From Acidimicrobiaceae bacterium (lineage in GTDB: Bacteria > Actinomycetota > Acidimicrobiia > Acidimicrobiales > RAAP-2), in NCBI GenBank assembly GCA_003138815.1, contig PLHD01000012.1, positions 22,127 to 59,534 on the forward strand: a DNA stretch of 37,408 bases, given 5' to 3'. The notes under the pieces are model-generated. The model saw nothing but the letters and a program-made list of their open reading frames with translations. It was not told where the DNA came from and did no database searches. The first letter of the stretch is position 1, and every line of letters starts with the position of its first letter. Both the position numbers and the translations under genes were made by a program. This document shows, one piece after another, positions 27,760-27,880 of this stretch.

Positions 27760-27784
27760 AAAAACCCCCCGCGTCGGCGGGGGG
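27760..27784 (-). terminator. Intrinsic terminator ahead of leuA (attenuator)
   Basis: On the minus strand CCCCCCGC pairs with GCGGGGGG around a four-base loop, followed at once by five T. It is a textbook intrinsic terminator and lies about 36 bases before the leuA start, inside the transcript that must make LeuA. It therefore only makes sense as a conditional terminator. Confidence 0.85.
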
Positions 27785-27788
27785 TCGC

Positions 27789-27808
27789 GGACGAGCAGGC
27801 GCTCGTCC
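27789..27808 (-). promoter_or_regulatory. Leader hairpin at the stop codon of the leuA leader peptide
   Basis: GGACGAGC and GCTCGTCC form a perfect eight-base-pair stem with a four-base loop. The first G is the last base of the leader-peptide stop codon TAG. An earlier element CTATCG in the leader peptide can pair with CGATAG around the stop, giving mutually exclusive folds. This is the switching part of the attenuator. Confidence 0.7.
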
Positions 27809-27846
27809 TATCGAAGCAGTAGGTCGAAACTCGAGACGATAGCCAC
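27808..27846 (-). CDS. leuA leader peptide with three leucine codons
   Basis: GTG at 27846 opens a 12-residue frame [12 protein letters not shown] ended by TAG. The leucines are coded CTA CTG CTT in a row, just before the Arg and stop. The frame is followed directly by a hairpin and then an intrinsic terminator before leuA. This is the standard arrangement for attenuation by ribosome stalling when charged leucyl-tRNA is short. A good promoter places transcription start on the GTG itself, so the peptide is probably translated from a leaderless message. GGAGG 12 bases upstream is too far and would be upstream of the transcript. A competing ATG at 27854 is in another frame, lies before the predicted transcript start and runs into leuA out of frame, so I reject it. 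Confidence 0.75.
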
Positions 27847-27852
27847 AAGGCC

Positions 27853-27880
27853 ATTCTACCTCCTCGCCGCCAAATGTCCA
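27853..27880 (-). promoter_or_regulatory. leuA promoter
   Basis: TGGACA at 27875-27880 (five of six to the -35 consensus), a 16-base spacer, and TAGAAT at 27853-27858 (five of six to the -10 consensus), all on the minus strand. Six bases later comes the GTG of the leader peptide. The start point is therefore predicted at 27846. Confidence 0.65.

Follow-up and report, generated by a model that had tools for sequence, protein, structure and literature searches.

A putative leucine attenuator upstream of leuA

The window analysed here is a stretch of 37,408 nucleotides from an Acidimicrobiaceae bacterium (contig PLHD01000012.1), the genome of which amounts to 2.53 Mb on 75 contigs and the nearest named records of which, judged by leuA, are metagenome genomes of Acidimicrobiaceae and Acidimicrobiales. 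Its leuA gene was identified by the families NF002991 (861.6 bits, cut-off 455) and TIGR00970 (793.3 bits, cut-off 697.4), and the leuA ATG at 27724 has an AAAGG 7 nt ahead of it. Upstream lie a promoter, a short leucine-ended frame, two hairpins and a U-run (Table 1), which a preliminary description of this DNA had picked out as an attenuator of leuA.

Table 1. Parts of the putative leuA attenuator in the window
Feature	Position	Strand	Evidence	Remarks
-35 box	27875..27880	-	promoter scan	TGGACA
-10 box	27853..27858	-	promoter scan	TAGAAT; GTG begins 6 nt after the box
Leader-peptide frame	27808..27846	-	sequence	12 codons; GTG start at 27846
Sensing codons	27814..27822	-	sequence	CTA CTG CTT (Leu-Leu-Leu), one codon ahead of the stop
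P2 hairpin	27789..27808	-	folding, arm co-evolution, covariation	8 perfect pairs
T, predicted intrinsic terminator hairpin	27763..27786 (core 27765-27784)	-	folding, terminator scan, arm co-evolution	
Terminator U-run	27760..27764	-	sequence	TTTTT
Shine-Dalgarno-like site of leuA	27732..27736	-	sequence	AAAGG
leuA, 2-isopropylmalate synthase	26048..27724	-	NCBIfam	558 aa

The -35 and -10 boxes, 16 nt apart (27880-27875 and 27858-27853), form a sigma-70-like promoter, and this pair, earlier suggested to start transcription near the GTG, was the sole promoter-like site found between 27600 and 28100 (shuffled sequences gave a mean of 0.0); a TGGAC can be seen by eye at the equivalent place in many close relatives. 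The 12-residue frame and its three leucine codons read as first described. P2, the eight-pair hairpin said to begin at the stop codon, has the sequence GGACGAGC-GCCT-GCTCGTCC, its first base being the last base of the TAG, and the core of T, CCCCCCGC-CGAC-GCGGGGGG, provides the eight G/C pairs noted before, or 10 pairs with the GA/TT ends counted. T was also the sole terminator-like site in 27600-28100, where shuffles give 0.3. Folding of the leader, which had been proposed as a check, did predict both P2 and T, but measured against shuffled sequences the outcome was modest, as 2 of 200 shuffles folded equally well or better (z -2.68). Folding by itself is thus modest evidence for the element, and conservation is the strong evidence.

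The intergenic region of the leuA promoter is also that of a small divergent frame at 27909-28052. Further along the window an inverted repeat around CTTAAGCGGAG / CTCCGCTTAG (28310-28400) lies directly upstream of an MFS-transporter-like frame (28401-29870), which overlaps at its end a TetR-like frame (29839-30528), the gene names being given by eye; judged by its sequence, the repeat looks like a candidate repressor operator.

Conservation of the leuA element and start of its leader frame

Upstream regions were selected on leuA similarity alone, with 30 loci taken from the same genus (in which 59 of 61 genomes had a match), a further 80 named loci and 27 further stretches; upstream DNA was usable in 136 of 138 loci, L052 and L122 being left out as too short, and removal of copies gave 110 distinct regions. 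The layout of a leucine-ended frame, two hairpins right behind it and a U-run was present in 106 of the 110, although the relatives share descent and such counts are therefore not independent events. The four regions that failed the frame or U-run rule were L023, L097, L098 and L103, and L097 and L103 do hold frames ending LLLT* and LLLR*; L008 has masked bases. In 102 of the 110 a frame closes with three leucines and no more than two residues after them, compared to 1 each for proline, arginine and glycine when any residue was counted, so that the comparison of orthologous regions proposed at the outset bore out the peptide. Five leuA loci (L098, L104, L110, L051 and L062) bear Chloroflexi or Acidobacteria record labels, which may be wrong, and the element is in all of them except L098. 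A cultivated Acidimicrobiia member, the Acidiferrimicrobium strain of L079, also has the element at its leuA.

A covariance model, R1, built from 34 distant relatives with the window excluded, matches the window at E 7.1e-9. Among 149 genomes of the class it matched 82, in most of them at one place only, a number to be read knowing that some of these species may have trained the model and that one match, L214 (G232, E 0.002), is probably chance. In a scan of the phylum 26 of 246 genomes matched, 7 of them outside the class, with a match in G120 (E 8.7e-4) standing as a candidate. All 30 loci taken from the R1 scan have three leucine codons, one further codon and a stop, the leucine codons being part of the model itself, and 29 of the 30 have a match to the leuA query (L195 via short stretches only; L199 is truncated at a contig end). 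Their leuA genes are of two distantly related types, with about 65-70% versus 22-29% identity to the query, and when ten of the second type were checked nine passed the 2-isopropylmalate synthase family cut-off and the tenth, a fragment, fell just below it. No second copy was found in the window's own genome by a search with R2, which gave one match (E 3.4e-18, the next being at E 0.96). Rfam release 15 gave no family at gathering score at the element in 10 loci, the only hit being an unrelated tRNA in L104, and sub-threshold listings such as OmrA-B and Atu_C8 were taken as chance.

The promoter scan, which is blind to frame, placed a -10 box 5-8 nt ahead of an in-frame start in 81 of the 106 leuA regions with the layout, the remaining gaps being 9-10 nt (18 regions), 3 nt (3) and 14 nt or more (4). 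Among relatives with a leuA identity of 76% or more the gap is exactly 6 nt in 44 of 57, as it is in the window, and in the close set of sequences the length of the peptide varies (the -10-to-stop distance has an sd of 8.4). A Shine-Dalgarno-like 4-mer precedes the frame start in 11 of the 106. Such spacing is compatible with a leaderless start, and the leader peptide, as had been supposed, is probably read in that way. Leaderless transcripts and small proteins are described as common in actinobacteria (PMC4633059, PMC3890552).

Geometry and co-evolution of P2 and T

The first base of P2 falls anywhere from the second stop-codon base to the second base beyond the stop in 102 of 104 leuA elements and in all 31 non-leuA elements measured (31 of 32, with L229 excluded), a range with a floor, as folding was started at that second stop base and earlier P2 starts are outside its scope. 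The gap between P2 and T is 0-5 nt in 103 of 104 leuA elements, where the sole exception is probably the mis-parsed L028, and 0-7 nt in 31 of 31 non-leuA elements. A single codon separates the leucine run from the stop in 84 of 104.

Co-evolution was assessed by a partner-swap test, comparing own segments with segments swapped among species, in a close set of 53 sequences (54 less L028) and a distant set of 41, from which L115-L117, L119, L121, L123, L125, L126 and L133 were excluded as genus members. The arms of P2 and of T prefer their own partners in both (z -12.0 and -10.6 respectively in the close set, -9.2 and -8.2 in the distant set). Alignment A1 comprises 44 of the 54 sequences of the close set; in it 98.6% of P2 is paired and 4 of the 8 P2 pairs are changed on both sides; T is invariant there and A1 is thus uninformative on it, and in distant relatives T changes from CCCCCGC to CCUCCUG along with its partner. 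Alignment A2, of 34 distant relatives, shows CCTCCTG unchanged throughout in the 5' arm of T and drift via G-U pairs in the 3' arm; in 16S rRNA, CCUCC forms the core of the anti-Shine-Dalgarno sequence.

The same layout before other branched-chain genes

Two non-leuA examples were found through second matches in genomes, namely a frame ending TIIIT ahead of a citramalate synthase gene (L218; TIGR00977, 533.7 bits, cut-off 450) and one ending TTIVIS ahead of a 3-isopropylmalate dehydrogenase gene (L211; NF002898, 491.1, cut-off 393). Other loci were searched with a strict layout scan that asks for no amino acid and recovers 73 of the 110 leuA elements, so its counts are minimum values and little weight attaches to its negatives. 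It was applied to the best-scoring 30 loci each of 64, 73 and 73 listed gene matches for cimA, leuB and ilvB, which are not a random sample. Among these best-scoring loci the layout precedes cimA in 9 of 30, the frames all having at least two isoleucines at the end and eight of them three or more; leuB in 8 of 30, with Ile/Val runs; and ilvB in 14 of 30, with runs of valine with leucine or isoleucine. The codon run fits the pathway in all 31 of 31 of these scan matches. Before trpE the strict scan found the layout in 0 of 30 loci, and the 6 matches among 1398 background windows all proved to be genuine elements lying off-centre, including a frame ending FLVVVP before ilvB (L087). The regions upstream of ilvB and leuB in the window's own genome gave no element in the strict scan, which misses a third of the known leuA elements.

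Outside the class, frames ending SLLLT (L360) and GLGLM (L363) precede leuS, leuS_bact being the best family for both gene fragments, and frames ending VLIT (L361) and VLVIH (L362) precede ilvB. L366, with a frame rich in branched-chain residues before ilvB, was set aside as its geometry differs, the stop being placed within the hairpin loop. At L365 (G096:C78:723-783) an aminotransferase-like gene is preceded by the frame VKLTRRSNK*, which has no codon run, and by two hairpins behind that frame. Of 32 non-leuA elements, 26 have their start 6-11 nt from the -10 box, a looser spacing than before leuA, and leaderless reading is therefore less certain there. As far as sequence can tell, the codon run is exchanged in relatives to match the downstream pathway, across leuA, leuB, cimA, ilvB and leuS.

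Proposed mechanism and alternatives

We propose that the element is a ribosome-mediated transcription attenuator of leuA, and give this reading a probability of roughly 0.78; that it is a leucine attenuator as such seems to us highly probable. RNA polymerase would start at or next to the GTG, and a ribosome would load on the 5' end and read the 12 codons. With leucyl-tRNA plentiful it would pass the three leucine codons to the stop and cover the 5' arm of P2, and the opening of P2 would let T form and end transcription ahead of leuA. With leucyl-tRNA short the ribosome would stall with a leucine codon in the A site, P2 would stay folded beside T and keep it from closing, and leuA would be transcribed. 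The promoter spacing, frame, codon run, P2, T, their conservation and the exchange of the run with the pathway are seen in the sequences, and termination at T and ribosome stalling are what we infer.

With P2, run and stop so placed, a ribosome holding the first leucine codon in its A site would extend roughly as far as the base of P2, and at the stop it would lie over the 5' arm of P2. In a masking model of the window with 12 nt of cover, 7 of the 8 P2 pairs are left with the A site at the first leucine codon; with it at the third or at the stop no P2 pair is left and T is retained. The step by which an intact P2 blocks T is tentative and we hold it at somewhat under an even chance. The main weakness of any switching model is that T is predicted with and without P2, in folding of the window and also in the roughly one quarter of 91 sequences for which folds were inspected (unmasked L010 excepted). 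A more specific form of the proposal, which we regard as doubtful, would make the element a modular attenuator, used by Acidimicrobiia and certain other Actinomycetota, with P2 as an antiterminator that competes for no terminator sequence; P2 would be opened whenever a ribosome reads the frame to its end and, if intact, would block T physically in the exit channel of RNA polymerase. With no strand in common, the codon run, P2 and T would be free to change independently, and this could account for the use of a single design at leuA, leuB, cimA, ilvB and leuS.

It had been remarked at the outset that the main hairpin does not obviously overlap the terminator stem and that the switching logic may differ from the enteric model. 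P2 and T indeed share no strand, P2 ending a few nt ahead of T, and a search for an overlapping antiterminator, over 19 segment pairs in two sets (two of the pairs being P2 and T themselves; the loop by loop energies were unusable; ten pairs were repeated on cleaned sets), showed a single outstanding signal among the remaining pairs, that of the frame with the sequence after the U-run, discussed as P1 below. No pairing of the frame or P2 segment with a T arm clearly beat swapped partners in the 53 close and 41 distant sequences, and an overlapping antiterminator was rejected as showing no co-evolution in these tests. Classical attenuation could still operate through an antiterminator overlapping T that is too weak or varied for swap tests. 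Such overlap logic has been proposed for actinobacterial ilvB (M. tuberculosis ilvB1, C. glutamicum ilvBNC), single sequences show alternative folds (L010 pairs its frame with the 3' arm of T), and the leucine run with the T 3' arm reaches z -1.7 to -2.1 in the close set. However, in the 41 distant sequences the best of seven antiterminator pairings scores -1.1 (frame with T 3' arm) and the leucine run with the T 3' arm -0.6, and a stalled ribosome would cover the leucine run, which is the wrong direction for antitermination. We regard classical attenuation as unlikely.

P2 could instead be a pause hairpin that holds RNA polymerase within the 5' arm of T until a ribosome at the stop unfolds it, the timing of release setting termination. 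In the distant set (A2) P2 ends about 9-12 nt ahead of an invariant CCTCCT|G, a spacing taken by eye on some rows and near that of known hairpin-dependent pauses. The close set, however, differs at the pause position, having CCCCC followed by G, and the model does not readily account for a rise of read-through on starvation; we consider it quite unlikely.

P1 is a helix between the frame immediately upstream of the leucine codons and the stretch directly behind the U-run. Within the genus it co-varies (z -7.5 and -7.4 for the 53 close sequences, -7.1 and -8.5 for 62 sequences), with 61% of cells paired, both-side changes at 11 of 12 pairs and a covariation score reached by 0 of 500 shuffles. 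It could form in read-through RNA only. This co-variation is what would be expected if the element controlled translation of leuA through P1, somewhat like the LEU element, with T incidental. Against this, P1 lacked a clear signal in those distant sequences, 38-39 in number, that extend far enough for the test, nine genus members being excluded (z -0.7 and -1.4), and showed none in the cimA, leuB and ilvB elements (z -0.6, -0.3 and +0.2); the window copy has 6 of 12 pairs, an RNAalifold search did not detect the helix, and sliding it by one column gives nearly the same score (0.238 versus 0.260) with equal both-side changes. P1 was rejected as a core part of the element, having no clear distant-set signal and being absent from the non-leuA elements, and translational control through it appears very improbable. 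A pairing of LEU type, between the leucine run and the 35 nt after T, where the leuA start is within or near in the close set and too distant in the distant set, had the wrong sign in 53 close sequences (z +2.7), and pairing of the run with the leuA start region was rejected for that reason. An ordinary small protein gene followed by a terminator, without leucine sensing, is hardly credible, common as leaderless transcripts and small proteins are in actinobacteria, since what is mainly conserved is a C-terminal run that turns to isoleucine or valine with the pathway.

The attenuator proposed here would show that a large actinobacterial class, most of it uncultivated, can exert much of its control over branched-chain amino acids through one small exchangeable RNA design, its reader being a ribosome that loads at the 5' end. 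It makes testable the question of position-only switching, in which a hairpin would govern a terminator with which it shares no strand, and the codon-run rule may aid in assigning pathway genes in unannotated genomes.

Comparison with known systems

To read the element as a leucine attenuator, its sensor peptide probably leaderless, is sound, and by itself such an attenuator is of known kind. Leaderless sensing had been thought new, which does not hold, as it is published for S. lividans leuA and leuS (PMC8079986) and for C. glutamicum ilvBNC (PMC11857589). The S. lividans peptides LeuL1 (MRFGLLLLSCRGEGL, leuA) and LeuL2 (MRAVRLLLSEPR, leuS) are leucine-rich like ours and are reported as transcribed leaderless, LeuL2 being followed by a hairpin and U-run; they differ in that LeuL1 is described as having no typical terminator, that the run lies further from the stop, and that the account of these leaders makes no mention of a stop-rooted hairpin (PMC8079986). 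Leader mutations in S. coelicolor are cited as giving results inconsistent with classical attenuation (PMC1262725), and these and the missing typical terminator of S. lividans leuA count against the attenuator model, as do the lack of an element before ilvB and leuB of the window's own genome in the strict scan and the matching of R1 to no more than 82 of 149 class genomes. More distant actinobacterial leuA leaders (e.g. MRFGLLLLSCRGEGL and MQRVLLLGRRDGV) have six or seven residues from run to stop and by eye no such terminator. The LEU element described for actinobacterial leuA (Seliverstov et al. 2005, PMC1262725) likewise has a leader peptide with a leucine run and a long-range closing stem comparable to P1, but is presented as having a pseudoknot and leucine codons that pair with the leuA Shine-Dalgarno sequence, whereas the window element has a predicted intrinsic terminator and its close set shows no pairing of that kind.

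The ilvBNC attenuator of C. glutamicum, for which experimental support is reported, shares with the window a branched-chain leader peptide and an intrinsic terminator, in the window a predicted one; its transcription starts one nucleotide from the start codon, much as it probably would at the GTG here, and it is unlike the window in having overlapping terminator and antiterminator and three hairpins (PMC11857589). Loss of its start codon is reported to lower expression, which is the opposite of what the P2 step would predict here, as on that reading loss of leader translation would raise it. The ilvB1NC leader of M. tuberculosis also has an upstream frame with branched-chain codons (LVVI) and a terminator, and a ribosome at its stop is described as masking a hairpin and leading to termination; it differs in its mutually exclusive antiterminator and terminator and its length of 166 nt (PMC13236596). 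The ilvB-II and ilvB-OMG motifs are described as having upstream frames rich in branched-chain residues before ilvB, the ilvB-OMG peptides being rich in these and threonine, much as VVVT* endings are here (PMC10272879), and our ilvB members may overlap them, the comparison being by description only.

The open PMC literature gave no paper on leader-peptide attenuation in Acidimicrobiia, and neither the compact architecture nor its modularity was found there in print. Leaderless leader peptides themselves are thus already published, and it is the stop-rooted hairpin beside the terminator, the class-wide conservation and the exchangeable run that, within this literature, seem new.
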